This document shows positions 43,433 through 58,754 of a stretch of DNA of 64,000 bases, one piece after another (the stretch's first letter is position 1; each line of letters opens with the position of its first letter). The stretch lies in NCBI RefSeq assembly GCF_020740535.1, contig NZ_CP082362.1, positions 3,160,501 to 3,224,500 on the forward strand, read 5' to 3'. The translations under genes and the position numbers were made by a program. This DNA is from Streptomyces profundus (GTDB lineage: Bacteria > Actinomycetota > Actinomycetes > Streptomycetales > Streptomycetaceae). The notes beneath the pieces were generated by a model. It ran no database searches. It was not told the DNA's origin and saw only the letters and a list, made by a program, of their open reading frames with translations.

Positions 43433-44500
43433 ATGCCAAGGCTATGCAAGCCGTCGGTGAGTGTGCCGGAATACACCATCACCATGGAAGAAACTCTGGA
43501 ATTTGCCGAAAGAGTACACGCCGGAAAGCCGCAGCTCCCGCTGGCACTTCGCCTGATCCAGAACACCGGGGTGAAGAAGCGACACCTCGTCCAGCCCATC
43601 GAGCAGACGCTCAGCCACCCGGGCTTCGAGGAGCGCAACCGGGTCTACGAGGTCGAGTCCAAGAACCGCTGCCCCCAGGTCATCGAAGAGGCCCTGGCCA
43701 ACGCCGAGGTGACCGCCAGGGACATCGACGCGATCATCTATGTGTCCTGCACCGGGTTCCTGATGCCGTCGCTGACGGCGTGGTTGATCAACGTCATGGG
43801 GTTCCGCTCCGACACCCGGCAGATCCCCATCGCCCAACTCGGCTGTGCCGCTGGCGGCGCGGCCATCAACCGGGCGCACGACTTCTGCCTGGCCTACCCC
43901 GGCAGCAACGTGCTGATCGTCTCCTGCGAACTGTGCTCGCTCTGCTACCAGCCCGAGGACGACGGGGTCGGTTCGCTGCTCTCCGACGGGCTGTTCGGTG
44001 ACGCGGTCGCCGCCGCCGTCGTACGCGGCCACGGGGGCACCGGCGTCGCGCTGGAGCGCAACGCCTCCTATCTGATCCCGAACACCGAGGACTGGATCTC
44101 CTACGCGGTGCGGTCCACCGGCTTCCACTTCCAGCTGGACCGCCGCGTGCCGGGGACGATGGAGCCCCTCGCCCCGGTGATGCGGGATCTGGCGACCGAC
44201 CACGGATGGGACGTCCGCAACCTCGACTTCTACATCGTGCACGCGGGCGGGCCACGCATCCTGGACGACCTGAGCAAGTTCCTCGACGTCGACCGGAAGA
44301 TGTTCCGGCACAGCTGGGCGACGCTGACCGAGTACGGGAACATCGCCAGCGCCGTCGTGCTCGACGCGCTCCGCAGGCTCTTCGACGAGGAGCCCCCGAT
44401 GGCGGGGGCCACCGGCGTGGTCGCCGGCTTCGGGCCCGGCATCACCGCCGAGATGGCGCTGGGCACCTGGGCCGTCGACGCGCCAGGCGAGGCCGGTTGA
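43433..44500 (+). CDS. rppA: Type III polyketide synthase, 1,3,6,8-tetrahydroxynaphthalene synthase (RppA type)
   Basis: The 355-residue protein has the Cys-His-Asn triad at C138 (AQLGCAAGGAA), H270 (FYIVHAGGPR) and N303 (EYGNIAS), exactly as in RppA. It condenses five malonyl-CoA into THN. It is the first gene of the meroterpenoid cluster and supplies the naphthalene core. No conventional ribosome site is obvious; AAAGAAAG lies ~17 nt upstream. Confidence 0.95.
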   Translation: MPRLCKPSVSVPEYTITMEETLEFAERVHAGKPQLPLALRLIQNTGVKKRHLVQPIEQTLSHPGFEERNRVYEVESKNRCPQVIEEALANAEVTARDIDAIIYVSCTGFLMPSLTAWLINVMGFRSDTRQIPIAQLGCAAGGAAINRAHDFCLAYPGSNVLIVSCELCSLCYQPEDDGVGSLLSDGLFGDAVAAAVVRGHGGTGVALERNASYLIPNTEDWISYAVRSTGFHFQLDRRVPGTMEPLAPVMRDLATDHGWDVRNLDFYIVHAGGPRILDDLSKFLDVDRKMFRHSWATLTEYGNIASAVVLDALRRLFDEEPPMAGATGVVAGFGPGITAEMALGTWAVDAPGEAG

Positions 44501-44594
44501 CCCCGCCGGGGTGGCGCCGCACCCCGGCCCCCACGCGCCGTCGCGGCGGCGCGTGCGCCCTCTCCCGAATCCAGCGACCAAGAAAGCGCATCAG

Positions 44595-45152
44595 ATGAGC
44601 GGCCTCATTCTTCCGCCAGGTCAGGGACGACGCCTGACGACACCGACCCAGGACGTCACCTTCAAGGCCACCGAGTCGGACGGCTCCGCGATATCCATAT
44701 TCGAGGTGGTCGTCCCGCCCGGGTTCGACGTGGGCGCGCACAGCCACCACCACGCGCAGGAGTTCTTCTACGTGCTCGAAGGCGAGTTGGACCTGCTGGC
44801 GTTCGAGCCGGTCAAGCGGACCGAGGAGGGCTGGCAGGACTGGGAGTCGGCCGACGGCGACCGGGTCGTCCACGCCGGCCCCGGCAGCAGCATGTTCGTG
44901 CCGTCGGGGACCCCGCACGCCTTCCGCAACTCCACGGACGAGCCGGCCCGGATGCTGTTCCAGAGCTTTCCCTCGCCCGACCACGAGCTGTACTTCGAGG
45001 AGATCACCAAGATCTTCGCCGCCGGCGCCGGTCTCGATCCGGAGGCCGTCGAGGAGCTGCGCATCCGCTACGACGTCAGCCAGATCACCCCGTTGCGCTA
45101 CGACCCGCCGGCGCAGGTGAGCGCCGGTACCGCCGCGAGGAACGGAGCGTAG
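44595..45152 (+). CDS. Cupin quinone-forming monooxygenase (MomA-like)
   Basis: The 185-residue cupin has metal-site motifs HSHHHAQEFFYVLEGE and PSGTPHAF. Its place between THN synthase and an aminotransferase matches MomA-type enzymes, which oxidise THN to the naphthoquinone flaviolin. Family knowledge supports the reaction; a generic cupin is the alternative. It lies three nt before the aminotransferase start. Confidence 0.82.
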   Translation: MSGLILPPGQGRRLTTPTQDVTFKATESDGSAISIFEVVVPPGFDVGAHSHHHAQEFFYVLEGELDLLAFEPVKRTEEGWQDWESADGDRVVHAGPGSSMFVPSGTPHAFRNSTDEPARMLFQSFPSPDHELYFEEITKIFAAGAGLDPEAVEELRIRYDVSQITPLRYDPPAQVSAGTAARNGA

Positions 45153-45154
45153 AG

Positions 45155-46306
45155 ATGACCACGACCCAGCCGATCCCGCTGGTGCACGCCAGCCTGGGCG
45201 ACGAGGAACTGGCCGCCGTGGCCGAGGTGTTCGCCTCCGGCTGGCCGGCCGGGCAGGGCCCGCAGGGCAAGGCCCTGGAGGCCGAGCTGGCCGAACGGTA
45301 CGGCGTCGGCGGCGCGGTCGCGACCAGCAACTGCGGCGTCGCGCTCCATCTGGCGCTGCTGGCGCTCGGCGTGGCGCCGGGCGACGAGGTGATCGTCGCC
45401 GACTACACCTTCCCCGCGCCGGCGCACGCGGTGCACTACGTCGGCGGCGTGCCGGTCTTCGCCGACGTGCGGGCCGACACCGGCACCGTCGACCCGCGGG
45501 CGGTGGCCGACCTGGTCGGCCCGCGCACGGTCGGGGTGATCGCGGTGGACACCGTCGGGCTGCCGGCCGACTACGCCGAACTGCGGGCGATCACCGAGCG
45601 CCACGGTCTCTTCCTCGTCGAGGACGCGGCCTGCTCGGTCGGCGCCACCTACCAGGGCGTGGAGGCCGGCGGTCTCGCGCCGGTCGCCTGTCTCTCCTTC
45701 CACGGCCGCAAGGGCGCGACCAGCGGCGAGGGGGGCGCGTTGCTCACCGCCGATCCGGCGCTCGCGGCGCACGCGCGGGTGCGGTCGTCCTTCGGCATCG
45801 GCAGCATCTTCGACCAGGCGAAGATCGTCGGCCTGCCGATCCCCGAGTTCACCGAGATCGGCTACAACTACAAGCTGTCGGATATCGCCGCCGCGATCCT
45901 GCGGGTGCAACTGCGGCGGATCGGCGAGCTGTTGGAGCGCCGCAGCGCGGTCGCCGCGCGCTATGGCGAGCTGCTCGGCGACGAGGAGCTCCTCACGCTG
46001 CCCCATGTGCCGGCGGACCGCACCCACGCCTGGCAGACCTACATGGTGACGCTGGACCCGCGCGTGGACCGGGCGGCGCTCGCCGCCGACCTGCGGGGCC
46101 AGGGCATCGGCTGCGGCCACGGCACCTGGGCGAGCCATCTCCAGCCCGTCTACGAGTCCAAGCAGCGGTGCCCGGTCTCCGCCGACCTCTTCGAGCGGAA
46201 CTTCGCCATACCGATGCACGCCGAGCTGAACATGGACCAGGTCGAACGGGTCGCGGACGCGCTCCGTGGCGCCCTCACCACCCACGCGCGCCCGCACCAG
46301 GGCTGA
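45155..46306 (+). CDS. DegT/DnrJ-type PLP aminotransferase (Fur3-like)
   Basis: The 383-residue enzyme has the PLP lysine K186 in SFHGRKGATSGEGG and the DegT motifs EDAACSVGA and NYKLSDI. In furaquinocin-type pathways a homologue transaminates flaviolin to 8-aminoflaviolin. The neighbouring THN synthase and cupin and the nitrite genes downstream support that role. The alternative is an amino-sugar aminotransferase, but no sugar genes are present. Confidence 0.85.
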   Translation: MTTTQPIPLVHASLGDEELAAVAEVFASGWPAGQGPQGKALEAELAERYGVGGAVATSNCGVALHLALLALGVAPGDEVIVADYTFPAPAHAVHYVGGVPVFADVRADTGTVDPRAVADLVGPRTVGVIAVDTVGLPADYAELRAITERHGLFLVEDAACSVGATYQGVEAGGLAPVACLSFHGRKGATSGEGGALLTADPALAAHARVRSSFGIGSIFDQAKIVGLPIPEFTEIGYNYKLSDIAAAILRVQLRRIGELLERRSAVAARYGELLGDEELLTLPHVPADRTHAWQTYMVTLDPRVDRAALAADLRGQGIGCGHGTWASHLQPVYESKQRCPVSADLFERNFAIPMHAELNMDQVERVADALRGALTTHARPHQG

Positions 46307-46316
46307 AAGGGGCAGC

Positions 46317-47315
46317 ATGACGAACAACCAGCCGACGCCCGAGGCGATTATGCGGCTCATCAACGGCTACTGGGCGACCGGCATCCTCGGCGCCGCGGCG
46401 ACCCACTCGCTCTTCACCCATCTCGACGGCGGCGCGGACACGGCCGACCGGCTGGCGTCCCTGGCGGGCATATCCGAGCGCGGGGCGCAGACCCTCCTGG
46501 ACGGGCTGGTCAGCCTGGGCCTGGTCGAGCTGAACGACGGCCGCTACGCCAACACCGCCGAGGCGTCGACGTTCCTGGTCGAGGGCCGGCCGGCCGACCT
46601 GAGCAGCTTCGCCAAGCTGAAGCTGACGCACATGGGCGGCATGGTGGACCTGCCCGAGGTGGTCAGGGCCGGCGGTCCGGTGCGGGACGCGGCGGTCGAG
46701 GTCGCCGACAACCCGCACTGGGCCGAGGTGGTGCCGGCCATCGCGGCGCAGTCGGTGCCGGTGGCGCGGATCGCCGCCGAGACCCTCGGGCTCGCCGAGG
46801 CCGGGGAGATCTCCATCCTCGACGTGGGCGGCGGCTCCGGCATCTACTCGGCGATCTGGCTGGGGCTCAACCCGGCCGCCCGCGCGACGCAACTCGACTG
46901 GGGCCCGATCAACGAGCTGGCCACGCGGCTGGTGGCCGAGCGCGGCGTGGGCGACCGATTCACCTGTGTGGACGGCGACTTCCACGCCACCGACTTCGGC
47001 ACCGACGCCTACGACGTGGCGGTCTACTCCCATATCGCGCACCAGGAGGGGCCGGAGGACAACGTGGCGATCCTCAGCCGGTTGCGGAGCGCCCTTCGGC
47101 CGGGGGGCACCCTGGTGCTCTGCGACTACGTCGTCGAGGACGACAGGAGCGGCCCGCCCTTCCCGTTGATCTTCGCCTCGGAGATGTTGCTCAAGAGCAA
47201 GCAGGGCGGCACCTGGCGGCGGGCGGACTACCACGCCTGGCTCACCAAGGCCGGTTTCGAGGACATCTCGTTCCAGTCCACCCCTTCGCCGGCCACCCTG
47301 GTCTTCGCCCGCTAG
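46317..47315 (+). CDS. SAM-dependent methyltransferase (plant-OMT-like fold)
   Basis: The 332-residue protein has an N-terminal dimerisation domain and a C-terminal Rossmann fold with ILDVGGGSGIYSAIW as the SAM motif. It would methylate a carbon or oxygen of the naphthoquinone. It starts 10 nt after the aminotransferase stop, with a GGGGCAG site. Which position is methylated is not shown. Confidence 0.85.
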   Translation: MTNNQPTPEAIMRLINGYWATGILGAAATHSLFTHLDGGADTADRLASLAGISERGAQTLLDGLVSLGLVELNDGRYANTAEASTFLVEGRPADLSSFAKLKLTHMGGMVDLPEVVRAGGPVRDAAVEVADNPHWAEVVPAIAAQSVPVARIAAETLGLAEAGEISILDVGGGSGIYSAIWLGLNPAARATQLDWGPINELATRLVAERGVGDRFTCVDGDFHATDFGTDAYDVAVYSHIAHQEGPEDNVAILSRLRSALRPGGTLVLCDYVVEDDRSGPPFPLIFASEMLLKSKQGGTWRRADYHAWLTKAGFEDISFQSTPSPATLVFAR

Positions 47316-47489
47316 GGCGCGTCGGCACGTCGGCGCGTCGGCGGGGGCCGCCCCGGGGCCGCGGTCGCACGTCGCGCCGGATCGGCACCGGCGAGCCGAT
47401 CCGGTTCGGCAACGCCCTGTTAACAACGCACCGCGCATGATCGGGTACGGCGCCCGCGACAGACGCTCAGGAAGACTTTTGGAGGATGC

Positions 47490-48431
47490 ATGTCCGAGAC
47501 CACCGAGTTGGCGGCCTACTACGCCGCCATCGAGGCATCCGCCCGGGTGCTCGACGTTCCCTGTTCGCGTGAGACGGTCTGGCCGATCCTGACCGCGTAC
47601 GAGCACGCCATCGCCGCCCAGCCGGTGATCGCCTTCCGGGTGGCCACCGGCAAGCGGCATGTGGGAGAGCTGGACTGCCGGTTCCTGATGCCTCCCGACG
47701 ATCTGGACAGCGCCTACTCCCTCGCCGTGGAGAGCGGCCTCGTCCCGGCGACCGACCATCCGGCGGGCTCGCTGCTCGCCGAGGTCCACGAGCGGTTCCC
47801 GCTGGACACCTCCGGTATCGACTTCGGGGTCGTCGGCGGATTCAAGAAGACCTGGTCGTTCTTCCCTCCCGACCGGCTCCAGAAGATATCGGACCTCGCC
47901 GCCCTCCCCTCCATGCCGCCCGGGCTGGGCGAGAACGCCGACTACTTCAGCAGGTTCGGCCTCGACGACCGGGTGAGCGTGGTCGGGATCGACTACCGGA
48001 ACCACACGATGAACGTCTACTTCGGCGAGCTGCCCGACGGCTGCCTGTCCCCGGAGAACATCCGGGCGATGCACCGGGACATCGAGCTGCCCGAGCCCAG
48101 CGAGCGGATGATCGCCCTCGGCGGGCAGTCGTTCGGGCTCTACGCCACCCTGCGCTGGGATGTGCCGAGGATCGAGCGGATCTCCTTCTCCGTGATGGCC
48201 CCCGATCCGAAGGATCTCCCGGTGCGGTTCGACGCGAAGATCGAGGAGTTGGTGAGGAATCCCCCGTATGGCGCGCCCGAGCGGAACGTGGTCTATGTCG
48301 CCATGTCAGCGACGGAGGGGGAGTATTACAAGCTCCAGTCCTACTACCGCTGGCAGTCCCAGATGACGGAGCTGATGCTGTTGGCCGAGGCGGAGCAGGA
48401 CGCCGCCCCCGAGGACGCCGGCGCGCGTTAG
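47490..48431 (+). CDS. ABBA-type aromatic prenyltransferase (NphB/Fur7-like)
   Basis: The 313-residue protein aligns by eye with the NphB/CloQ/Fnq26 family. It shows AVESGLVPATDHPAGSLLAE, GVVGGFKKTWSFFPPDR and FGLYATLRWDVPRIERISFS, with the Lys and Tyr residues that hold the diphosphate. These soluble enzymes attach geranyl or farnesyl groups to aromatic rings without an Asp-rich motif. A GGAGG site is present. It should join an isoprenoid to the THN-derived ring. Confidence 0.9.
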   Translation: MSETTELAAYYAAIEASARVLDVPCSRETVWPILTAYEHAIAAQPVIAFRVATGKRHVGELDCRFLMPPDDLDSAYSLAVESGLVPATDHPAGSLLAEVHERFPLDTSGIDFGVVGGFKKTWSFFPPDRLQKISDLAALPSMPPGLGENADYFSRFGLDDRVSVVGIDYRNHTMNVYFGELPDGCLSPENIRAMHRDIELPEPSERMIALGGQSFGLYATLRWDVPRIERISFSVMAPDPKDLPVRFDAKIEELVRNPPYGAPERNVVYVAMSATEGEYYKLQSYYRWQSQMTELMLLAEAEQDAAPEDAGAR

Positions 48432-48546
48432 CGATTGGGGGATTCCGAGCCGCTCCCCCGGGGGGCGGCGACCACAGACACGCAGGCGGTATTCATCTCC
48501 GGCCGGCCCGGTGCCGCCGGATCACGGGAGGCAGGTGAGCCCAACC

Positions 48547-49119
48547 ATGGTCGCAAGGGAATCGCAGCTGGTGGAGCTGGTCGGCGCGGACGGCGCGGCG
48601 GCGGGCTCCGCCACGGTCGCCGAGGCGCACAGCGCGCCCGGCCGGCTGCACCGCGCGTTCTCGGTGCTGCTGCTGGACGATCGGGGCCGCGTTCTGCTCC
48701 AGCAACGGGCCGCGGTGAAGACCCGGTTCGCGCTGCGGTGGGCCAACGCGTGCTGTGGTCATCCGGCGCCGGGGCAGAGCGTGCTGGAGGCGTCCGAGCA
48801 GCGGCTGTTCGAGGAGATCGGGGTGCGGGGCGTGCCGTTGCACGACACCGGCGTCTATCTCTATCGGGCGGAGGATCCGGAGACGGGCCGGGTCGAGCAC
48901 GAGTACGACCATGTGGTGGTCGGCCGGGTGCCGGTGGATCCGCGGCTGAGCCTGGATCCGGCCGAGGTGGCGGACATCCGCTGGGTGGCGCCCGATCGGC
49001 TGCGTCTCGAACTGGACGACAGGCCGCAGGAGTTCTCGCCCTGGCTGGCCGGGGTCCTCGGGGTGGCGACGGAGGCCGCCGGCCGCCTCCCGGAGGCGGC
49101 GGCCCTCGCCCACCCGTAG
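48547..49119 (+). CDS. idi: Isopentenyl-diphosphate isomerase, type I
   Basis: The 190-residue Nudix-fold enzyme has the catalytic Cys in WANACCGHP, the catalytic Glu in VEHEYDHVVVG and the family ring LLLDDRGRVLLQQRA. It converts IPP to DMAPP to feed prenylation. The start is uncertain: a GTG four codons upstream sits closer to GGGAGG. No other mevalonate or MEP genes are nearby, so precursors come from primary metabolism. Confidence 0.92.
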   Translation: MVARESQLVELVGADGAAAGSATVAEAHSAPGRLHRAFSVLLLDDRGRVLLQQRAAVKTRFALRWANACCGHPAPGQSVLEASEQRLFEEIGVRGVPLHDTGVYLYRAEDPETGRVEHEYDHVVVGRVPVDPRLSLDPAEVADIRWVAPDRLRLELDDRPQEFSPWLAGVLGVATEAAGRLPEAAALAHP

Positions 49120-49192
49120 GGCCCGGCCCTGGCGGCCCCGGAGGGTGCTCGGGGCCGCCAGGGCCGGGGGGTCCGTCAGGGCTGGGGGCCCG

Positions 49193-49822
49193 TCAGGCGG
49201 CGCGGCCGGCCTTGAGCGCCGCCGCGGTCTCGACGACGCGGCGAGCCTGGTGGTCGGCCGCCTTCAGGGCCACCTCGGAGGGCGGGCCCTCGCCGGCGAC
49301 ATGGGAAGTGCCGTAGGGGTTGCCCGACTTGAACTGGATGGGATCGGTATAGCCGGGCGGCACGATGATGCCGCCCCAGTGATAGAAGACATTGCTCAAC
49401 GCGAGAATGGTGGACTCCTGCCCGCCATGGGCGGTGTTGCTCGAAGTGAAGGCCGAGTACACCTTGTTGGCGAGCTTCCCGTGGAACCACAGGGGGCCGG
49501 TGCTGTCCAGGAACGCCTTCAGCTGGGCGGCCGGGTTCCCGAACCGGGTGGGGGTGCCGACCAGCACCGCGTCCGCCCAGTCCAGGTCGTCGTGGCCGAC
49601 GAGCTCGACATCGGCGGTGGCCTCCAGGTGCGGCCCCCAGGCCGGGTTGGCGGCGATCGCCTCCGGCGGCGCCGTCTCGGCGACCTTGCGCACGCGCACC
49701 GTCGCGCCCGCCTTCTCGGCGGCCTCGGCGGCGGCCCTGGCCAGCGTGTACACGGTGCCGGTCGCGCTGTAGTAGATGATGGAGAGGTTCACGGATGCCA
49801 CGAGCGTTCTTCCTGTCGTCAT
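49193..49822 (-). CDS. WrbA-type NAD(P)H:quinone oxidoreductase
   Basis: The 209-residue flavodoxin-like enzyme has the FMN loop YYSATGTVYTLAR and family motifs GTPTRFGNPAAQLKAFLD and NTAHGGQESTILAL. It performs two-electron quinone reduction. Placement in a naphthoquinone cluster suggests it reduces a pathway quinone or protects from the product. A GTG 12 codons later is an alternative start. It is transcribed with DoxX from the ECF41 divergent region. Confidence 0.88.
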   Translation of the reverse strand: MTTGRTLVASVNLSIIYYSATGTVYTLARAAAEAAEKAGATVRVRKVAETAPPEAIAANPAWGPHLEATADVELVGHDDLDWADAVLVGTPTRFGNPAAQLKAFLDSTGPLWFHGKLANKVYSAFTSSNTAHGGQESTILALSNVFYHWGGIIVPPGYTDPIQFKSGNPYGTSHVAGEGPPSEVALKAADHQARRVVETAAALKAGRAA

Positions 49823-49926
49823 ATGGGTTGTTTCCGGGGACGCGGGGCCATGGTCGTGCCGACCGCCCCGCGCGGCGCGGCTTCGGTCAGAGGTCCGGAA
49901 GGTCCGAGGGCCGGAGGGCCGGACCG

Positions 49927-50301
49927 TCAGAAGGAGTGGGGACCGAAGCGGCCCCACGCCACGAAGACGGCCGCGGCGAGCAGGATCGTGTTCAGCCCGA
50001 CGGACTGGAGCTCCTTGCGGCGCTGGTGGATGACGATGGCGCCGACCATCAGCAGCGCCACCCCGACGGCGGCCAGCGGCACGAAGACCGGCGCGATGTC
50101 GACGGCGGCCGGCAGGATGAGGCCGATCGCGGCCAGCACCTCGACGACGCCGATGGACCGGATGAACGTGTCGCTGACGTCCTCGACGAATCCATAGCCG
50201 GAGGCGGCCATCTTCTCTCTGGTCTGGGTCAGCTTCATCAGCCCACTGAACAGAAAGAGCGCGGCCAGCAGCGAAGCGACGATCCACAGAGCGACGTTCA
50301 T
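49927..50301 (-). CDS. DoxX-family membrane protein
   Basis: The 124-residue protein has four membrane segments and DoxX features (LFLFSGLMKL, GVVEVLAAIGLILP). DoxX proteins associate with redox and quinone stress. It is the first gene of the leftward pair driven from the ECF41 region. Confidence 0.85.
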   Translation of the reverse strand: MNVALWIVASLLAALFLFSGLMKLTQTREKMAASGYGFVEDVSDTFIRSIGVVEVLAAIGLILPAAVDIAPVFVPLAAVGVALLMVGAIVIHQRRKELQSVGLNTILLAAAVFVAWGRFGPHSF

Positions 50302-50412
50302 GACGGTTTCTCCTCGAACGGGTGGGGCGGCCTCACCGTCGAGGCCGCCTGCGGTGCCCCGGCCGCCCTGGGCGAGGGTGGCCGGGCCCGAGCGCGTTGG
50401 GCTCGAAGGTAC

Positions 50413-50439
50413 GACGAAGCGGTCGCTCGTAATGTGAGG
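50413..50439 (-). promoter_or_regulatory. Candidate ECF41-type promoter for doxX-wrbA
   Basis: Read on the minus strand, CCTCACA is followed after 16 nt by CGTC. This is close to the ECF41 consensus TGTCACA-N16-CGTC/A. It lies ~110 nt upstream of the DoxX start, next to the ECF41 gene itself. The -35 differs at two positions, so this is tentative. Confidence 0.45.
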
Positions 50440-50507
50440 TCGGGCGCCGGCCCGGGCCTGGGCCGCACGAGTAAGGGCGCACGGGACAAGGGGAGTTGGC
50501 CAGAGAG

Positions 50508-51440
50508 ATGAGCACGCAGTCGGAGCCGGTGGACGGCCGGCTCGATCCGGGCCTGAGCGCGGTCCTCAGCGAGCGCCGTCAACTGATCAACCTCGGCTAT
50601 CGGTTCCTCGGCTCGCTGGCCGACGCCGAGGATGTGGTGCAGGAGACCTACGCCCGCTGGTACGCGCTCTCCAGGGAGCAGCAGGAGGCCATCGCCTCCC
50701 CCGGCGGCTGGCTGACCAAGGTGGCGAGCCGGATCTGCCTCGATGTGCTCGGCTCGGCGCGGGCCAGACGGGAGCGCTATGTCGGGGAGTGGATCCCGGA
50801 GCCGCTGCCCGACCGCACGGAGTGGATCAACGGCCGCTCGGCCGGCGCCCCGGCCGACCCCGCCGATCGCGTCACCCTCGACGAGTCGGTGAACATGGCC
50901 TTTCTCGTCCTGCTGGAGTCGATGACCCCGGCGGAGCGGGTGGCGTTCATCCTGCACGACGTCTTCCACTACTCCTTCGCCGAGGTGGCGGAGATCGTCG
51001 GCCGCTCGCCGGCGGCCTGCCGGCAGTTGGCCTCGACGGGCCGCCGCCGGGTCAGGACGCTGCGCTCGTCGACCACGCCGACGGCCCAACGCGCCGACGT
51101 GGTGCGGAACTTCAAGCTGGCCTGGGAGGCCAGGGACATCGAGGCCCTGATCGCCGTCCTCGATCCGAGGGTGACGACGGTGGCCGACGGCGGCGGCCTG
51201 GTCAGCGCCGTGCTGCGCCCCGTCGAGGGCGGCGAGCCGGTCGCGCGGGTCTTCGTCGGCATCGCCGAGCGGGCGCCGGGCCTCACGCTTCTGGAGCGCA
51301 CCGTCAACGGCCAGCCGGGTCTTGTGGTCCGGTGGGCCGGGGCCACGGCGGCGGTGTTGGCGTTCGACGTGGCGGGCGACCGGATCAGACACGTCTGGGC
51401 CGTGCGCAACCCGGAGAAGCTCCGGCCCTGGACGAGTTGA
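50508..51440 (+). CDS. ECF41-group RNA polymerase sigma factor (SigJ-like)
   Basis: The 310-residue protein has sigma regions 2 and 4 (DAEDVVQETYARWYALS, YSFAEVAEIVGRSPAACRQL) and a C-terminal SnoaL-like regulatory domain. Variants of all three ECF41 linker and tail motifs are present: WIPEP, DGGGL and NPEKL. ECF41 factors regulate themselves through this domain and usually drive one neighbouring redox operon; here that is probably doxX-wrbA. Confidence 0.93.
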   Translation: MSTQSEPVDGRLDPGLSAVLSERRQLINLGYRFLGSLADAEDVVQETYARWYALSREQQEAIASPGGWLTKVASRICLDVLGSARARRERYVGEWIPEPLPDRTEWINGRSAGAPADPADRVTLDESVNMAFLVLLESMTPAERVAFILHDVFHYSFAEVAEIVGRSPAACRQLASTGRRRVRTLRSSTTPTAQRADVVRNFKLAWEARDIEALIAVLDPRVTTVADGGGLVSAVLRPVEGGEPVARVFVGIAERAPGLTLLERTVNGQPGLVVRWAGATAAVLAFDVAGDRIRHVWAVRNPEKLRPWTS

Positions 51441-51539
51441 GCGGCGCGTGGCGCGGCGCGCGACGCATGAGAACCGCCAAAAAAAACTACATCGCCTCCA
51501 AACTTGCCATCACCCCAATATTAGCCTAAGGTCGACAAC

Positions 51540-51911
51540 ATGAGCACACAACTCGCCATCGTGAAGCAGTACTTGGAAGGTGTCCTCAAGGCCGACAAGG
51601 AGCAGGTCCTCGCCCATGTGACCGACGATGTCGTGTGGGAGGTCGTCGGCCGCGTCAAGGTCCAGGGGAAGAAGGCCCTGGAGGGCGTCGTCAGCAACCC
51701 GGTCTTCGCCGGCCCCCCCACGCTCACCGTCGACCGCTGGATCGAGCACGGGGACACCGTCATAGCGAAGGGCGCCGGCAGCGCCGTTCTCGCGGCCGGC
51801 GGCCAGGTCGAGTTCTTCTTCTGCGACGTCTTCACCGTCACGGGCGGCGCGATCAGCCAGGTGGAGAGCTACAAGGTCAACCGCGAGGAGCCCGGCTCCA
51901 AGGGCCCGTGA
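51540..51911 (+). CDS. SnoaL-like (NTF2-fold) protein
   Basis: The 123-residue protein begins MSTQLAIVKQYLEGVLKADK and has the cone-shaped NTF2 fold pattern (VLAHVTDDVVWEVVG, VEFFFCDVFTVTGG). Members act as cyclases or isomerases in polyketide pathways or as small binding proteins. An AT-rich gap (51460-51539) precedes it and a hairpin follows, so it may be a single-gene transcript. Confidence 0.82.
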   Translation: MSTQLAIVKQYLEGVLKADKEQVLAHVTDDVVWEVVGRVKVQGKKALEGVVSNPVFAGPPTLTVDRWIEHGDTVIAKGAGSAVLAAGGQVEFFFCDVFTVTGGAISQVESYKVNREEPGSKGP

Positions 51912-51940
51912 CCGACGGCCCTTCCCAACCACCCCCGGCA

Positions 51941-51969
51941 GACCGCCGCTTCCCCGGGAGGCGGCGGTC
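51941..51969 (+). terminator. Hairpin terminator after the SnoaL-like gene
   Basis: Arms GACCGCCGC and GCGGCGGTC flank an 11-nt loop and are followed by TTGT. Confidence 0.7.
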
Positions 51970-52154
51970 TTGTCATGTCGGACCACACGCCCGACCCACA
52001 CCGCCCGCCCCGCACTACCCGACCCGCACCGCCGAACCACACCGCCCGACCCGCACCGGCCGACGACAGCTCGCCGCTCGACGCGCGCCCCCCGGCGCGG
52101 CGCGGGCCGGCGATGTCCGATCACCCATCGAACACCGCAAAGGAGACACACTCG

Positions 52155-53741
52155 ATGAAGGGCTCCCTGGCCTACAAATCGGTACAGAAGCGCGGTCTCC
52201 ACATCGGACTACTGCCCGAGATGGCCGCGGCCGTCAACCCCTCGACATCGCTCACGCTCGATCACGATCTGGACGTCTTCCCCGAGTTGGGGCGGCGCCT
52301 GACCATCGCCAGGTACGCCGAGGCGGTGGCCGAGCTGGCCGCCCGGCTCTCGGCGGCCGGCGTCCGGCCGGACGAGCGGGTCGTGATCCACAAGACCGCC
52401 AACGCCGACATCTGGATGTTCGCCGCCGCGACATCCCGCATCGGCGCCGTGCCCGTGCTGCTGTCGCCCGCGCTGGACGCGGCGACGGTGGGCGCGCTGC
52501 TTGAGCGGGTGGGCCGGCCGAGCCTGCTGACCGACGAGCGCAAGCTCGACGGACTGGCCGAGGTGCCCCTGGCGGAGTTGACGACCCGGGTGATCACCGC
52601 GACCGGCAGCCGGCCCGGCGCCGTCTCCGTGGCCGAGCTGGCCGGCTCGCCACGGGTCGGGCCCGTGGTGCGGCCGATCGACGAGGCCGCCGTGATCACC
52701 CACACCTCCGGCACCACCGGGCTGCCCAAGCTGGTCGTGCACACGGCCAGGACCCAGGGCACCCGGCTCATACCCCAGTGGCGGCTGCTGTCGCTGATGC
52801 GGCGCAAGGAGACGGTGGCCATCCATATCCCCTTCGTGCACTCGCGCATGGTGGCGGCGATGGCCCTGGCGCTGCTCAAGGAGATGCCGATACTCCTGCT
52901 GAACAACCCGGATCCGGACAGCGTCGCCGCCCAGTTCGTCACCCACCAGCCGGGGTTCGTCGAGGCGCTGCCCAACTCGCTGATGGAGTGGGAGCGGCTC
53001 ACGGAGGACCAGCGTCGGCCGTTCCGCTCGGTGAAGATCTTCAGCAGCACCTTCGACGCGATCCACCCCAGGACGATGAGCCAGCTGCTGAAGTCGTCCG
53101 ACCGGCGGGGCGCGTTCTTCTTCCAGATCTACGGGCAGAGCGAGGTGGGCCCAGCCGTGGGCCGGGCCTACTTCCGGAGCTCGGCGCACAAGGCGAACGG
53201 TCGGTGCGTCGGCTGGGCGATGCCGTTCGGCGCGGCGAAGGTCCGGGTGGTCAGCCGGGACGGCCAGCCGCCGTCCGAGCGGAACCCCGGCTTCATCGAG
53301 GTCGGTTGGCCCGGCCTGGCGAAGACCTACTTCGCCGAGCAGGGCCGGTACGACGAGAACCGGCACGGCGACTGGTGGCGCACGGGGGATGTCGGCTACC
53401 GCACCAGATTCGGCTGCCTGCACATGCTCGACCGGGAGATCGACATGATCGCCGGGCTGCGCAGCTCCCTTGAGGTCGAGGACAGCGTGCTGGGCGCGCT
53501 GGACGAGCTCACCGAGCTGGTCGTGGTGCCGGGCCCGGGCGGCGAGCCGGTTCCGGTGATCTGCACGGTCGAGGACAAGCCGCTGGACCCGGAGCGCTGG
53601 CGCGCCGCGGTCGCCGGCTTCCCGCAGCTCGCCGACCCCGTCCATATTCCCGAGTCCGAACTCCCCCGCACCGCCACGCTGAAGGTCCAGCGGGTGGAGC
53701 TGGCCCGCCGGCTCAAGGAGCAAGAGGCCGAGCGCGCCTGA
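52155..53741 (+). CDS. ANL-superfamily AMP-ligase, candidate CreM-like diazotase
   Basis: The 528-residue enzyme has the adenylation motifs ITHTSGTTGLPK (near residue 180), FQIYGQSEVGPAVG, WWRTGDVGY and a C-terminal Lys region (TATLKVQRVEL). It was started at an ATG with AAGGAG; upstream in-frame sequence looks non-coding. In cremeomycin biosynthesis a related ligase, CreM, uses ATP and nitrite to diazotise an aromatic amine. The CreE/CreD-like genes two genes downstream make that the best role here; an aryl or fatty acyl-CoA ligase is the alternative. Confidence 0.85.
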   Translation: MKGSLAYKSVQKRGLHIGLLPEMAAAVNPSTSLTLDHDLDVFPELGRRLTIARYAEAVAELAARLSAAGVRPDERVVIHKTANADIWMFAAATSRIGAVPVLLSPALDAATVGALLERVGRPSLLTDERKLDGLAEVPLAELTTRVITATGSRPGAVSVAELAGSPRVGPVVRPIDEAAVITHTSGTTGLPKLVVHTARTQGTRLIPQWRLLSLMRRKETVAIHIPFVHSRMVAAMALALLKEMPILLLNNPDPDSVAAQFVTHQPGFVEALPNSLMEWERLTEDQRRPFRSVKIFSSTFDAIHPRTMSQLLKSSDRRGAFFFQIYGQSEVGPAVGRAYFRSSAHKANGRCVGWAMPFGAAKVRVVSRDGQPPSERNPGFIEVGWPGLAKTYFAEQGRYDENRHGDWWRTGDVGYRTRFGCLHMLDREIDMIAGLRSSLEVEDSVLGALDELTELVVVPGPGGEPVPVICTVEDKPLDPERWRAAVAGFPQLADPVHIPESELPRTATLKVQRVELARRLKEQEAERA

Positions 53742-53864
53742 GGCCCGTCCGGCGGCGGAGTCCGCCACGGCCACCGAGCCGACCCATTCCTCATCGAGGT
53801 GGCGCACCGGTGCCTTCCGGTGCGCCACGGCGGTGGATCAACCAACTCGAAAGGGACCAGTGCA

Positions 53865-54935
53865 ATGACATCTGAAGCCACCCTCGGGCGATTTCGCGAG
53901 TACATGGTGGGGCCCTCGCGCTTTATGACCCTGCTGTCCTGTTTTGAGCTGGGCATCATCGACCGACTCCGGGCGACCCCCGGCCTGACGGCTGACAAGC
54001 TGGGCGCCGCCGTGGGTGCCAAGCCGGACGCCGTGGAGCAGCTCCTGCACCTGCTGGTCAAGGAGGGCTTTGTCGCGCTCGACGAGAAGTCGGGCGGCTA
54101 CTCCCTCGACGCGCTCGCCGAGGTCCCCGAGCTCGACCTCCGCCGGGCGCTCACCTATATGAACATGATCAAGGTGGTCGCGCTCCGACAGTTCTTCTAC
54201 CTCACGGACAGCGTGCGGACCGGCAGCCTCGTCGGCCTCAAGGAGCTGTACGGGGCCGAGGGCACGCTCTACGGAGCGGTGGCCGAGCACCGCGATCTGC
54301 GGGAGTCCTGGGCCACGTTGATGGACACCGTCACCGCGCACATCGACCCCTGGTTCTTCGGCAACATCGACGTGCCGGCCGGCGCCCAGGTGCTGGACCT
54401 CGCCGGCAACACCGGCCTCGGCGCGATCCACACCTACCAGCACAAGACCTCTCCCGGGCTGCGGGTGACCACCTTCGACCTGCCGGAGAAGGAGCAGGAC
54501 GCGCTGGAGAACTTCCGGTCCCACGGCCTGGAGGAGCACCTCTCGTTCATCGGGGGCAACGTCTTCGACGAGATCCCCAAGGGCTTCGACATCGTGCTGA
54601 TCAAGCACTTCCTCGACATGTTCGACCGGGACGACGTCTTCCGGATCCTGTCGGGAGTCAACGCGTCGCTGGAGGTCGGCGGCCAGGTCAACATCATGGT
54701 GCCGGTCTATCCCGAGGACATCAGGGACACCGACAACTACAACGTCGACTTCTTCCCGGCCTTCTTCATCGGCGCCACCATGGGCCAGGGCGGGCCGCAG
54801 AAGCTGTCCGTCTACCAGAGCTGGCTGGAGGAGTGCGGGTTCGAGGTCACCAAGGCCATCACCAAGTCGGCCGCCGAGATCCCGCCGGACGTCATCCCCG
54901 TCCAGGCCATCCTCTGCGCGACCAAGGTCCGCTGA
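53865..54935 (+). CDS. SAM-dependent methyltransferase
   Basis: The 356-residue protein has a winged-helix dimerisation domain and a Rossmann fold with QVLDLAGNTGLGAIHTYQ as the SAM motif. The GGxGG core is altered to AGNTG. It would be the second pathway methyltransferase, perhaps C-methylating the ring. It follows the ligase in the same direction. Confidence 0.84.
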   Translation: MTSEATLGRFREYMVGPSRFMTLLSCFELGIIDRLRATPGLTADKLGAAVGAKPDAVEQLLHLLVKEGFVALDEKSGGYSLDALAEVPELDLRRALTYMNMIKVVALRQFFYLTDSVRTGSLVGLKELYGAEGTLYGAVAEHRDLRESWATLMDTVTAHIDPWFFGNIDVPAGAQVLDLAGNTGLGAIHTYQHKTSPGLRVTTFDLPEKEQDALENFRSHGLEEHLSFIGGNVFDEIPKGFDIVLIKHFLDMFDRDDVFRILSGVNASLEVGGQVNIMVPVYPEDIRDTDNYNVDFFPAFFIGATMGQGGPQKLSVYQSWLEECGFEVTKAITKSAAEIPPDVIPVQAILCATKVR

Positions 54936-55013
54936 CCCGTCGTCTGCTGAGCGCCGCCGGCGGGGACACCGCCCGCCGGGGCGCCCTGTGCCGGGACAAC
55001 GACCGTTCAGGAA

Positions 55014-55087
55014 CTGGCCCTTGAGGAAGGGCCAGGAAACGCCGAGGCCACCGGGCCGTTCCACCGCTGAGCGGTGAGGCGGCCCGG
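55014..55087 (+). terminator. Two tandem hairpins between methyltransferase and flavoprotein genes
   Basis: The first has a 9-bp stem CTGGCCCTT/AAGGGCCAG with a 4-nt loop. The second has CCGGGCCG/CGGCCCGG arms enclosing ACCGCT/AGCGGT. They occupy the 358-nt gap and suggest that the creE-creD-like pair has its own promoter. The rest of the gap shows nothing recognisable. Confidence 0.6.
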
Positions 55088-55293
55088 CGGTCCTGGTACC
55101 GTTCGCCCGTTCCACGGCGCTCCACCGTCGCGCGCCACCGAGCCACCGCGCACACCGCCCCAAGTCCGCCCGCGACACGGCCCGTTGCGCTCCGTCCTGA
55201 CCGCACCCCGCCTGACCCACTGCCCCCGGTTCACCGCCAACCCTTGTCCGACGGCGGGCTCAAGGCGTTCGAACCTACGTTGAGGAGTTGTTG

Positions 55294-57321
55294 GTGCTTA
55301 ACGTCTGTATCGTCGGCACAGGACCACGCGGACTCTCCGTCCTGGAACGCGTCTGTGCCAACGAACGAAAGTCGCCGGGCCACCAGGCGGTGACCGTGCA
55401 CATCGTGGATCCCTACCAGCCGGGCCCGGGCAAGGTGTGGCGCACCGACCAGTCGCGCCATCTGCTGATGAACACCGTGGCCTCGCAGGTCACCGTCTAC
55501 ACCGACGACAGCGTGGTGATGGACGGCCCCGTGGAGGTCGGCCCCAGCCTCCACGAGTGGGCGGCCGACCTCGCCAAGCGCGCCGACGCGCCCGAGGTGC
55601 GCGCCCGCCACTCGGAGCAGACGTTGAGCGAGGCCCGCCGCCTGGGCCCCGACGCCTACCCGACGCGCGCGTTCTTCGGCGACTATCTGGCGGACGCCTT
55701 CCAGACGATCGCCGACGGCGCGCCCGCCCATGTCACCATCGTCGAACACCGCACCAGGGCCATCGCGTTGACCGAGGAGCCAGGCGACGGCGGCGCCCAG
55801 TCGCTCGCCCTGGCCGACGGCACCCGGCTCACCGGCCTCGACGCCGTGGTCCTCGCGCTGGGCCATGTGCCGGCCCGACCCACCCGGCGGGAGGCCACGT
55901 TGGCCGAGGCCGCCGCCGCGCACGGCCTGCGCTACTTCGCGCCGGCGAACCCGGCGGACGTGGACTTCTCCGCGATCGAACCGGGCGAGACCACGTTCGT
56001 CCGCGGCCTGGGGCTGAACTTCTTCGATGTGCTCTCGCTGCTCACCGAGGGGCGCGGGGGCGTCTTCGAACGGGTCGGCGACGCGCTGCGCTACCGCCCT
56101 TCGGGCCGGGAGCCGCATATCGTCGCCGGCTCCCGGCGCGGCGTGCCCTACCACGCGCGCGGCGAGAACCAGAAGGGCCCGTACGGCCGTTACATGCCCA
56201 GGCTGCTCACCCTGGAGCGGATCGCCCGGCTGCACGAGCGGGCCGCCGTGGGCGAGCGGCTGCACTTCGCCACCGACCTCTGGCCGCTGATCGCCAAGGA
56301 GGTGGAGAGCGTCTACTACGGCACGCTGCTCGCCGTGCGGGGGCGCGGCCGGGAGCGCGAGGCGTTCGTCCGCCGCTATCTGGCCGCCGAGGGGCGCGCG
56401 GCGGAGGGCGCGTTGCTCGATGCCACCGGCATCGCCCCGGGCGACCGCTGGGACTGGGAGACCATCGCCCACCCCTATCGCGACCGCGTCTTCGCCGACC
56501 GCGCCGACTTCCACGCCTGGCTGCTCGACCACCTCGCCGCCGACGTCCGCGAGGCCAGGGCGGGCAATGTCGACAGCCCGCTGAAGTCGGCGCTCGACGT
56601 GCTGCGGGATCTGCGCAACGAGATACGGCTGGCCGTCGACCACGGCCGGCTGGCCGGCGACTCCTACCGCGACGACCTCCAGTCCTGGTACACCCCACTG
56701 AACGCCTTCCTCTCCATCGGCCCGCCCGTCTCCCGCATCGAGGAGCTGATCGCGCTGCTCAAGGCCGGCGTGGTCGAGGTCCTCGGCCCCCAGGTGCGGC
56801 TCGCCGCGCCCGATCCGGGGCGCCGACTCCCGCCGGGCGAGGCGGCGTTCACCGCCGTCTCGACGGCGGTCCCCGGGCCGCCGGTGGTGGCCACCACCGT
56901 GGTCGAGGCGCGGCTCCAGGAGCCCGATCTGCCGCGCACGGCCGAGCCGTTGCTGCGCGATCTGGTGGAGCGCGGGGAGGCGTCCAGGCACCGCGTCGAC
57001 GGCAGCTGCGGCACCCGTTACGAGATGACCGGGCTGGCCGTCACCGAACGCCCCTACCAGCTGATCGACGGGGCCGGCCGCCCGCACCCACGGCGCTTCG
57101 CCTACGGTGTGCCCACGGAGACCGTGCACTGGGTGACCGCCGCCGGAATCCGTCCCGGCGTCAACTCCGTGACGCTGGGCGACGCGGACGCCATCGCCCG
57201 CGCCGTGCTCGCGCTCGCCGCCCACGGCACAGGTGCGATGACCATCCCGAGCAGGACCCCGGAGGCGCCCGCGGCCGGGGACAGCACCCCGCCCGCCGAC
57301 CCCGTCGAGGTGACCGCGTGA
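55294..57321 (+). CDS. CreE-like flavin monooxygenase (aspartate to nitrosuccinate)
   Basis: The 675-residue flavoprotein begins VLNVCIVGTGPRGLSVLERV with an FAD-binding motif and is of the NAD_binding_9 type to which CreE belongs. It is paired with a CreD-like lyase through a 4-nt GTGA overlap, the same pair that makes nitrous acid from L-aspartate in cremeomycin biosynthesis. The GTG start with TGAGGAG six nt upstream is preferred over TTG codons just before it. A paralogue lies at 22844-24730. Confidence 0.88.
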   Translation: MLNVCIVGTGPRGLSVLERVCANERKSPGHQAVTVHIVDPYQPGPGKVWRTDQSRHLLMNTVASQVTVYTDDSVVMDGPVEVGPSLHEWAADLAKRADAPEVRARHSEQTLSEARRLGPDAYPTRAFFGDYLADAFQTIADGAPAHVTIVEHRTRAIALTEEPGDGGAQSLALADGTRLTGLDAVVLALGHVPARPTRREATLAEAAAAHGLRYFAPANPADVDFSAIEPGETTFVRGLGLNFFDVLSLLTEGRGGVFERVGDALRYRPSGREPHIVAGSRRGVPYHARGENQKGPYGRYMPRLLTLERIARLHERAAVGERLHFATDLWPLIAKEVESVYYGTLLAVRGRGREREAFVRRYLAAEGRAAEGALLDATGIAPGDRWDWETIAHPYRDRVFADRADFHAWLLDHLAADVREARAGNVDSPLKSALDVLRDLRNEIRLAVDHGRLAGDSYRDDLQSWYTPLNAFLSIGPPVSRIEELIALLKAGVVEVLGPQVRLAAPDPGRRLPPGEAAFTAVSTAVPGPPVVATTVVEARLQEPDLPRTAEPLLRDLVERGEASRHRVDGSCGTRYEMTGLAVTERPYQLIDGAGRPHPRRFAYGVPTETVHWVTAAGIRPGVNSVTLGDADAIARAVLALAAHGTGAMTIPSRTPEAPAAGDSTPPADPVEVTA

Positions 57322-58754
57322 CCCCGGACAGCCCCCCGCCCAGCGACCCGACCGGACACGGCCCCGACGCGGGGCTGCTCTCCCCGGTCCGGGCCGGCAC
57401 CCCCGCCGAGGCGGCGACCTCCGACCTGGCCTGGCTCCAGGCGATGCTCGACGCCGAGGCGGCCCTCGTCCGCGCCCAGTCCACCCTCGGCACCGTGCCC
57501 GCTTCGGCCGCCGCCGCCATCACCGAGGCCGCCCGCGCCGAACGGCTCGACGTGCGCGAACTCTCCGTCGCCGCCCGGGAGACGGCCAATCCGGTGGTCG
57601 GCCTGGTCCGCGCGCTCACCCGGGTCGTCGCGGCGGATTCGCCCGAGGCCGCCGAGTACGTGCACCACGGCTCCACCAGCCAGGACGTCTTCGACACTGG
57701 CGCCATGCTGGTCGCCGCCCGCACGCTGCGCCTGATCCACGCCGATCTGGCACGCGCCGCCGCCGCGCTCGGCGACCTCGCGGCCCGGCACCGCGACACC
57801 GCGATGGCCGGACGCACCCTCGCGCTGCACGCGGTGCCCACCACCTTCGGCCTGAAGGCCGCCGGCTGGCGTCGGCTGCTGCTGGACGCCGGGGACCGGG
57901 TGGGCGCCGTCCTCGACGGCGGCCTGCCCGTCTCGCTCGGCGGCGCCGCCGGAACCCTCGCGGGCTATCTGGAGTTCGCCGTCGGCGGCGTCGAGGAACC
58001 GCCCAGCCCTGAGGCCACCGACGCCTATGTGGAACGGCTGCTGGACGCCTACGCCGCCGAGACGGGCCTGGCCCGCCCGCCGCTGCCCTGGCACGCGCTG
58101 CGCACCCCGATGGCCGATCTGGCCGCCGCCCTCGCCTTCGTCGCCGGCGCGCTCGGCAAGATCGCGGTGGACGTCCAGTCGCTGACCAGGACGGAGGTCG
58201 GCGAGGTCACCGAGCCGGCCGTCGAGGGGCGCGGCGCGTCCTCCGCCATGCCGCACAAGCGCAACCCGGTGCTGGCCACCCTGCTGCGCAGCGCCGCGCT
58301 CCAGGTGCCGGTGCTGGCCGCCGGGCTCACCCAGTGCCTGGTCACCGAGGACGAACGCTCGGCCGGCGTCTGGCACGCCGAGTGGCAGCTGCTCCGCGAG
58401 TGCCTACGGCTGGCTGGCGGCGCCGCGCACACGGCGGTCGAGCTGTCCGAGGGCCTGGTGGTGCGGCCCGAACGGATGCGGGCGAACCTGGATCTGACGG
58501 GCAGTCAGGTGGTCTCCGAGCGGGTCTCCGCCACCCTGGCGCCCAAGCTCGGCAAGGCCCGCGCCAAGGCGCTCCTCACCCGCGCCTCGGCCGAGGCCGA
58601 GCGCACCGGGCGACCGTTGGCCGACGCCCTCGCCACCCTGCCCGAGGTGGCCGAACACCTCACCGACGCGCAGGTCAGGCGGCTGCTCGACCCCACCGGC
58701 TACACGGGCGCCGCGGGCACGCTGGTCGACCGGGAGCTGGGCGAAGGGCCCTGA
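57318..58754 (+). CDS. CreD-like nitrosuccinate lyase (aspartase/fumarase superfamily)
   Basis: The 478-residue protein has the superfamily signature SSAMPHKRNP near residue 306, YVHHGSTSQDVFDTGAM near residue 112 and LALHAVPTTFGLKAAGWRR. These resemble 3-carboxymuconate cycloisomerase, the subgroup of CreD. It would release nitrite from nitrosuccinate, leaving fumarate. Translation is coupled to the CreE-like gene. Its last 55 nt overlap the convergent P450 gene. Confidence 0.88.
   Translation: MTPDSPPPSDPTGHGPDAGLLSPVRAGTPAEAATSDLAWLQAMLDAEAALVRAQSTLGTVPASAAAAITEAARAERLDVRELSVAARETANPVVGLVRALTRVVAADSPEAAEYVHHGSTSQDVFDTGAMLVAARTLRLIHADLARAAAALGDLAARHRDTAMAGRTLALHAVPTTFGLKAAGWRRLLLDAGDRVGAVLDGGLPVSLGGAAGTLAGYLEFAVGGVEEPPSPEATDAYVERLLDAYAAETGLARPPLPWHALRTPMADLAAALAFVAGALGKIAVDVQSLTRTEVGEVTEPAVEGRGASSAMPHKRNPVLATLLRSAALQVPVLAAGLTQCLVTEDERSAGVWHAEWQLLRECLRLAGGAAHTAVELSEGLVVRPERMRANLDLTGSQVVSERVSATLAPKLGKARAKALLTRASAEAERTGRPLADALATLPEVAEHLTDAQVRRLLDPTGYTGAAGTLVDRELGEGP

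Follow-up and report, generated by a model that had tools for sequence, protein, structure and literature searches.

Does a meroterpenoid gene cluster of Streptomyces profundus make the nitrite needed to remove an amino group that its own pathway installs? The question is raised by positions 43433-58754 of a 64,000-nucleotide stretch of the genome (assembly GCF_020740535.1, contig NZ_CP082362.1, positions 3,160,501 to 3,224,500 of the forward strand), which we call the window and whose numbering is used throughout; the host genome consists of one contig of 7.65 Mb. An earlier reading of the letters alone (the sequence-only reading) had listed here a tetrahydroxynaphthalene (THN) synthase, a cupin, a DegT aminotransferase, a prenyltransferase, methyltransferases, an AMP-ligase and CreE/CreD-like genes, and matches to Pfam, NCBIfam and PDB entries locate every one of them in this interval. 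We consider it highly probable that this is a THN meroterpenoid cluster of the furaquinocin type, and that it produces nitrite of its own for diazotisation and deamination.

The nitrite genes lie side by side and overlap by four bases (57318-57321):

55288..57321, + strand: CreE-type aspartate N-hydroxylase, nitrosuccinate-forming (PF13454)
57318..58754, + strand: CreD-type nitrosuccinate lyase, nitrite-releasing (NF052556)

Judged by sequence, CreE and CreD are genuine and the genes of the aspartate-nitrosuccinate (ANS) nitrite pathway are present. CreD scores 797.4 bits on the equivalog model NF052556 'nitrosuccinate lyase', against a cut-off of 650; its identity to the CreD in PDB entry 5xny is 69.0%. 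It keeps 15 out of 15 ScCreD residues taken from passages of PMC13411527, including E49/H118, D125/H253, S302, K308, R341 and the motif SSxMPxKRNP. On the PcaB model NF006554 it stays far under the cut-off (395 against 595 bits). An identity as PcaB or adenylosuccinate lyase was rejected, as the cut-off of NF052556 is exceeded by 147 bits and the residues fit. CreE is 58.6% identical to the aspartate N-hydroxylase of Streptomyces sp. V2 (PDB 8cp2) and keeps 10 of the 11 catalytic, entry-chamber and tunnel residues taken from passages of PMC10404684 (including Arg13, Asn62, Arg276, Asn413, Arg416 and Arg577), the sole exception being the tunnel-mouth Arg597, which is replaced by Ala. The host genome encodes a single CreD above the NF052556 cut-off; the next match is 34% identical.

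Two further relatives of CreE were seen. One, elsewhere in the host genome (G000:C1:4667255-4669120, 56% identical), has two TGA codons in the alignment and is possibly a decayed copy. The other lies in the window (22844-24730, + strand, 628 aa, about 38-39% identical to the cluster CreE), directly 3' of an ABC uptake operon of siderophore type (19825-22847) that encodes a binding protein, a FecCD permease and a probable ATPase. It keeps Arg13, Asn62, Arg276, Arg412 and Arg416, and probably acts on another substrate, because Asn413 is changed to Gly, Arg409 to Ala, Arg266 to Lys and Arg577 to Thr.

The nitrite would be consumed by a pathway encoded in the remainder of the cluster, for which the following genes are relevant:

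43433..44500, + strand: THN synthase, a type III polyketide synthase (PKS), Fur1-like (PF00195/PF02797; best PDB match 1u0m, E 1.7e-177)
44511..45152, + strand: cupin, Fur2/MomA-like (PF07883), proposed oxygenase from THN to mompain
45155..46306, + strand: DegT/DnrJ aminotransferase, Fur3-like (PF01041, 312 bits), proposed to form 8-aminoflaviolin
46266..47315, + strand: O-methyltransferase (MT4), Fur4-like by position (PF00891, PF08100)
47490..48431, + strand: ABBA aromatic prenyltransferase of the family of Fur7, Fnq26 and NphB (PF11468, 205 bits)
48511..49119, + strand: type I isopentenyl diphosphate (IPP) isomerase, idi (NF002995, 175 bits against a cut-off of 127; PF00293), which would supply dimethylallyl diphosphate (DMAPP)
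49193..49822, - strand: WrbA-like NAD(P)H:quinone reductase or flavodoxin-fold FMN reductase (PF03358)
52155..53741 (alternative start 51975), + strand: AMP-forming ligase, Fur5/NapB4-like (PF00501), proposed ATP-dependent 8-aminoflaviolin diazotase
53865..54935, + strand: C-methyltransferase, orthologue of Fur6

Starting from L-aspartate, CreE would form nitrosuccinate, which CreD would split into fumarate and nitrite. The THN synthase would provide THN, the cupin would oxidise it to mompain, and the DegT enzyme would convert mompain to 8-aminoflaviolin by transamination. The AMP-ligase would then activate nitrite with ATP and diazotise the amino group of 8-aminoflaviolin, after which a two-electron reduction with loss of N2 would give 1,2,4,5,7-pentahydroxynaphthalene (PHN), possibly with help of the WrbA-like reductase. 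Finally, the two methyltransferases would O- and C-methylate PHN and the ABBA enzyme would prenylate it, the most likely donor being DMAPP supplied by the idi of the cluster. The order of these steps and the role of the ligase as diazotase are inferred from published work. Passages in PMC12670698 and PMC12814520 describe the oxidation to mompain, the transamination, a diazo-forming enzyme and the reductive deamination to PHN, for which they cite a 2025 study (Noguchi et al., Chem Sci) of reductive deamination via 8-diazoflaviolin; flaviolin is there seen as a likely shunt product. In the same passages Fur6 is reported to act on deaminated PHN, and so is MfqH, an O-methyltransferase from the related mfq cluster. 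The logic proposed from the sequence alone (nitrite from CreE and CreD, an aminoflaviolin, diazotisation) fits both the genes found and these passages on furaquinocin and marfuraquinocin. That reading had left the outcome between deamination and a diazo- or azo-bearing product; because Fur6 and MfqH are reported to act on PHN, deamination is favoured and the second outcome less so.

The individual genes have close relatives in other THN clusters. The THN synthase is 79-86% identical to those of related clusters, and the aminotransferase 76-85%. In clusters whose ligase reaches 70% identity or more, the values are 81-86% for the THN synthase and 70-81% for the ligase itself. The C-methyltransferase is 81.1% identical to Fur6 (PDB 8har) over 355 residues, with the next PDB match at 58.5 bits. 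In relatives where both are found the cupin gene adjoins the aminotransferase gene; MomA-like is a putative label for the cupin. Translation probably starts at about 44595 for the cupin and at about 46317 for the O-methyltransferase. The WrbA-like protein is a candidate for the reducing step, but this is a guess, and G271 lacks the gene. It occurs in 11 of 33 other THN loci, in nine of them at most 4 kb from the ligase (the 33 do not include the window and remain after removal of L006 and L010, which are duplicates, and of the contigs over which G152 and G321 are split). Among the papers listed by a literature search, none combines WrbA with flaviolin or meroterpenoids; for the Je 1-369 cluster, a passage in PMC9686526 lists a gene for a quinone oxidoreductase and gives it no role. 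Elsewhere in the host genome there are one clear and two weak type III PKS matches.

To what extent do nitrite genes accompany this type of ligase? The sample consisted of 392 genomes of the genus, 106 with a ligase match at E <=1e-120 and 102 with a CreD above the NF052556 cut-off. A genome was counted as THN-type if such a ligase match is at least 58% identical and, on the fetched DNA, is part of a THN core or can be assigned to one. CreD above the cut-off is present in 22 of the 25 genomes with a THN-linked ligase (host included) against 80 of 367 others, an association far above chance (Fisher p 2.5e-11, uncorrected for species relatedness). Left out of the 25 are G257, G023, G259, G289 and G279 (58-62%), whose fetched DNA (limited to 20 of 65 kb in the case of G289) shows no THN synthase; G374 (58%) and the ligases below 58%, for which DNA was not fetched, stand outside the count. 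G321 and G152 are counted though ligase and core lie on separate contigs, and G184 is counted on the strength of its THN synthase, although cupin and DegT are absent from the fetched DNA. G081, whose core lies on a contig of 4.8 kb that has no ligase gene, is uncounted, and G344/G354 and G047/G184 are near-duplicates. The three genomes without CreD above the cut-off are G050, which has a CreD fragment just below it (647 bits), G156 and G271.

The creE-creD pair stands with the cluster in 13 of the 25 genomes. It is at most 25 kb from the ligase in the host (G000), G087, G267, G221, G021, G141, G068, G225, G074, G278 and G016, and inside the THN core, on a contig separate from the ligase, in G152 and G321. 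The pair is elsewhere in the genome in G105, G243 (92 kb off, beside a second THN synthase), G295, G344, G354, G051, G047 and G184, and on another contig of a fragmented genome in G217 and G050. Five genomes (G074, G278, G016, G321 and G152) share the order cupin-DegT-creE-creD-THN synthase-methyltransferase, and their CreD proteins are the nearest to that of the window among the 392 genomes (81-85%).

The ligase family is also found on 24 Streptomyces plasmid records (PLSDB, H1-H24), 15 of them at 75-81% identity; the neighbourhoods of the matches H1, H2 and H13 (H13 being G243) are all THN clusters. Two ligase genes about 25 kb apart occur in G047:C1:2449070-2509069 and G184:C1:5569736-5629735, where they flank a THN synthase, idi, a C-methyltransferase and a prenyltransferase, with a second THN synthase in G047.

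A natural with/without comparison is offered by G156 and G271, probably Streptomyces sedi and S. triticirhizae respectively. Both carry a colinear cluster beside the same conservon as the window, and both miss one element:

54939..58775, no strand given: creE-creD block (3.8 kb), no counterpart at the same site in G156 or G271 (blastn)

Homology between the window and G156 runs in blocks, ends at 54926 and resumes at 58784; for G271 it ends at 54938 and resumes at 58776, so that it restarts 22-30 bases beyond the creD stop. At this site about 130 bases are present in G156; in G271 there are about 4.9 kb, which contain two coding-like open reading frames (ORFs) unrelated to the block. No CreD match was found in either draft genome; for CreE there is none in G156 and in G271 only a 37%-identical CreE-like protein at a contig start. 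Both are draft assemblies (50 and 430 contigs) rated 100% complete, which makes an overlooked CreE or CreD gene unlikely but possible. A NarG-type nitrate reductase was found in neither, and a nitric oxide (NO) synthase gene is present in G271 and was not found in G156. The sister ligases keep the four adenylation motifs that we checked, three being identical and the fourth differing at its final residue only. Of 192 positions that do not vary in 26 other rows they differ at 7, compared with 0-7 when single rows are left out in turn.

These sister clusters bring in the possibility that the nitrite genes are passengers between cluster and conservon with some other function, the cluster using other nitrite or no diazotisation, as in the sisters. 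Such an arrangement would agree with a colinear cluster that lacks the block in drafts where no genuine CreE or CreD was found, and with sister ligases whose motifs are kept and whose changes stay within the left-out range. We nonetheless hold it to be improbable: the window creE-creD genes have their closest relatives in pairs that lie within THN cores and keep their functional residues, and the window ligase falls in a different clade from those of the sisters, which would fit a joint exchange of ligase and nitrite supply.

Sequence comparisons indicate that the cluster is a patchwork. Among the loci compared, doxX, sigJ, MT4 and DegT have their best matches in G156 or G271; for the prenyltransferase and idi these two are level with or slightly ahead of other loci, and for the THN synthase, cupin and wrbA the other loci are level or slightly ahead. 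The ligase is 70-71% identical to those of the sisters and 81% to the best other one, the C-methyltransferase 80% and 84%. A clade of window, G156 and G271 is rejected for the ligase by the approximately unbiased (AU) test (p 0.00015). The DegT tree is unresolved around the window, and prenyltransferase, idi, MT4 and sigJ were compared by identities rather than trees. The SnoaL gene sits at the presumed breakpoint. It would appear that recombination with other THN clusters brought in the creE-creD block, and probably the ligase too. We prefer gain or replacement of creE-creD in the window to loss in the sisters, because the nearest relatives of the pair lie in other THN clusters; the trees cannot decide the direction. 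A joint exchange of the C-methyltransferase with the ligase was hinted at by the trees and was not retained (AU p 0.1).

A bolder version of this history is possible, though we find it doubtful. Nitrite supply would be an exchangeable accessory of THN clusters, with the sister species running the same pathway at one site without detectable CreE/CreD or NarG (and one of them without NO synthase). The window strain would have swapped its diazotase and captured creE-creD, while the sister diazotases use unknown or external nitrite or act otherwise; the window product would be C5-prenylated and a WrbA-type reductase would expel N2.

Several observations weigh against a cluster that makes and uses its own nitrite, or against the history just given. 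CreD lies at the edge of one PcaB model, TIGR02426, at 355.6 bits and thus within 0.2 bits of the cut-off (355.75), the remaining models being below theirs. A gap of 352 bp separates the C-methyltransferase gene from creE; because of this gap, and with no promoter evidence, co-transcription of creE-creD with the cluster is unproven. The pair is present in the fetched DNA of only 13 of the 33 other THN loci, where both creE and creD are at least 6.3 kb from the ligase, against 3.4 kb for creE in the window (match midpoints). The sister ligases look intact though their genomes are without detectable genuine CreE and CreD, so that nitrite genes are neither strictly required beside the ligase nor obligatory neighbours of such clusters. 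Nitrite from NarG in the window strain was rejected, as no NarG-type nitrate reductase was found in the host genome; such an absence says little, given that 14 of the 20 THN genomes searched are without NarG and 6 have it. An NO synthase gene elsewhere in the host genome is another possible source of oxidised nitrogen. As to the history, the AU test is non-significant for the C-methyltransferase clade (p 0.1), and the grouping of window, G156 and G271 appears for the THN synthase in the best tree without support. The group tested was named from synteny, yet after the first FastTree tree had been seen.

The final point of this kind concerns the ligase. Fur5 is the presumed diazotase of the furaquinocin pathway. 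The same role for the window ligase is putative and rests on neighbourhood rather than on a sequence test; NF058622 (AvaA6 diazotase), the second-best model, is matched far below its cut-off (104 against 975 bits). The protein might then be an ordinary acyl-CoA ligase, with an aminated product that is never diazotised. Its best curated model is indeed a generic fatty-acid CoA ligase, its best PDB match is a FadD, and Table 3 of PMC9686526 annotates Fur5 homologues as acyl-CoA ligases. However, behind this FadD and another AMP-binding enzyme the structures of Tri17 (8tf7/9bq0), an N-N-forming ligase, rank third and fourth. NapB4 is listed in a passage of PMC11705231 as a CreM homologue that putatively forms the diazo group, and one in PMC12670698 states that a diazo-forming enzyme is conserved in these clusters. 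Together with the co-occurrence of CreD and ligase, and with Fur6 acting after deamination, this makes an ordinary acyl-CoA ligase very unlikely.

What the cluster would finally make can be narrowed somewhat. We guess at a C5-prenylated, fumaquinone-like product, that is, a C-methylated, O-methylated and dimethylallylated flaviolin derivative, and rate this tentative guess at slightly less than an even chance. It is based on the idi gene in the cluster, the two methyltransferases, the lack of a nearby polyprenyl synthase and the lack of a fur21 candidate. No polyprenyl synthase was found within about 370 kb of the cluster (five are located elsewhere in the host genome). Among the cluster ORFs scanned with Pfam there are only two methyltransferases and no fur21 candidate. 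The prenyltransferase matches PDB entries 4ee6 (E 5e-85) and 1zb6 (E 6e-60); since no relative that was found exceeds 63% identity, its prenyl donor can only be guessed, which also counts against our reading. Assigning the donor from sequence was attempted and dropped, since PDB and homology searches and passages of PMC4684245 gave no usable rule. The passages found in the literature describe no fumaquinone gene cluster.

Alternatively, the diazo group might be kept, giving a diazo-, azo- or hydrazone-bearing meroterpenoid comparable to the diazo napyradiomycins, azamerone or furaquinocin L. Diazo napyradiomycins from THN pathways are known (a passage in PMC10897937), furaquinocin L bears an acetylhydrazone (a passage in PMC9686526), and the SnoaL-like protein is an additional, unexplained element. 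Retention is unlikely all the same, given that Fur6 and MfqH are reported to take the deaminated substrate, that a Fur6 orthologue and a second methyltransferase are present, and that no haloperoxidase was seen among the cluster ORFs scanned with Pfam. The alternatives considered here are not mutually exclusive, and their probabilities need not add up to one.

The remaining features of the locus are as follows:

42590..42635, + strand: left boundary, a terminator-like hairpin (20-bp stem) preceding the THN synthase
49927..50301, - strand: DoxX/MauE-like membrane protein (PF13564)
50496..51440, + strand: extracytoplasmic function (ECF) sigma factor, SigJ-like with C-terminal extension (PF04542, PF08281)
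51540..51911, + strand: SnoaL-like protein (PF12680)
58700..59956, - strand: P450-like protein of the neighbouring conservon, flanking and outside the pathway (PF00067, E 0.027 only)

Genes in the cluster beyond those named by the sequence-only reading are the IPP isomerase and the WrbA-like, DoxX-like, ECF sigma and SnoaL-like genes. The DoxX-like gene is at most 4 kb from the ligase in 7 of the 33 other THN loci, and relatives of the SnoaL-like protein (41-42%) occur in 2 of the 33. In the sister clusters the ECF sigma factor is 76% identical in both and the O-methyltransferase 79-84%; the SnoaL-like protein has no match in either, and wrbA is absent from G271. To the right, the P450-like gene is followed by conservon-type genes (ATP-binding, DUF742, roadblock), running opposite to the cluster; in G156 and G271 it has the same position at 81-84% identity. 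Its 3' end overlaps that of the convergent creD by 55 bases (58700-58754). The terminator scan of the window gave 4 terminator-like entries against 3.9 expected by chance, and the hairpin at 42590-42635 is distinguished only by its long stem. With the third-position G+C filter used to list coding-like frames, the cluster genes are coding-like except creD and wrbA, whose ORFs extend upstream beyond the gene.

Comparison with known systems starts best from cre and ava, which share with the window a CreE/CreD pair and an ATP-dependent diazotase (putative in the window). A passage in PMC10777205 describes for ava a deamination by reduction with NADPH and already raises the question of the nitrite source for ava clusters; ava has its own reductase, AvaA7. 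Unlike the window, ava starts from 3-amino-4-hydroxybenzoic acid (3,4-AHBA) and its description is without a THN synthase. A site with the nitrite block in one species and without it in the sisters offers a way to ask where diazotases lacking CreE/CreD obtain their nitrite.

For the nap cluster (napyradiomycin/azamerone), a passage in PMC12670698 assigns napB1-4 to the formation of aminoflaviolin and of the diazo group. The producer CNQ-525 has its creE/creD operon at a separate locus (a passage in PMC11705231), whereas the window has the nitrite genes in cis; a further difference from nap is that no vanadium haloperoxidase turned up in the Pfam scan of the cluster ORFs. A presumably merochlorin-like cluster on plasmid pl_2 of Streptomyces sp. 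KMM 9044 shares with the window THN synthase, cupin, DegT, ligase (81%), C-methyltransferase (83%), CreE (58%) and CreD (73%). It differs by an undecaprenyl-diphosphate-synthase-like gene, a DUF6851 protein, mevalonate genes and a creE-creD pair upstream of the core. Its 'pcaB' (L092 7192-8646) scores 818 bits on the nitrosuccinate-lyase model (cut-off 650); at 369 bits it also passes a PcaB model (cut-off 355.75), and this may be the reason for its label. Such double matches may conceal nitrite genes in other clusters, and the labels 'FAD-binding protein', 'pcaB' and 'cycloisomerase' in clusters of this type merit re-reading as nitrite genes.

The closest comparison is fur (Streptomyces sp. 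KO-3988; Je 1-369), which shares the type III PKS, cupin, aminotransferase, methyltransferase, ligase, prenyltransferase and Fur6 with the window. The order of fur1-fur3 is the same (THN synthase, cupin, aminotransferase; taken for Je 1-369 from a passage in PMC9686526). In the window, creE-creD follow directly after the ligase/C-methyltransferase pair, unlike in fur; the window also has idi, DoxX, ECF sigma and SnoaL genes instead of the fur19 polyprenyl synthase and a fur21 candidate. Fur21 has a role in the furan ring. Passages of PMC9686526 place fur19 and fur21 in both KO-3988 and Je 1-369; since counterparts of both were not found, the window has a furaquinocin-type core and is not a furaquinocin cluster. 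Table 3 of that paper labels the fur16 homologues as FAD-binding protein and the fur17 homologues as 3-carboxy-cis,cis-muconate cycloisomerase. Read from these labels alone, fur16 and fur17 are in all likelihood CreE and CreD, so that the family's type cluster would already hold the gene combination seen in the window. The relabelling bears on furaquinocin L, whose cluster contains the fur16/fur17 homologues and whose authors, in a passage of the same paper, reported that no N-N-bond genes were found.

Summarizing, the resemblance to furaquinocin logic that had been seen in the sequence is borne out by the Fur6 orthologue, the fur1-3 order and the fur16/fur17 labels. Nitrite genes with THN clusters are not new and the pathway is of a known kind, an amine that is made and then removed via nitrite being built into many THN meroterpenoid clusters. 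The less ordinary point is the presence and absence of the nitrite block at one chromosomal site.

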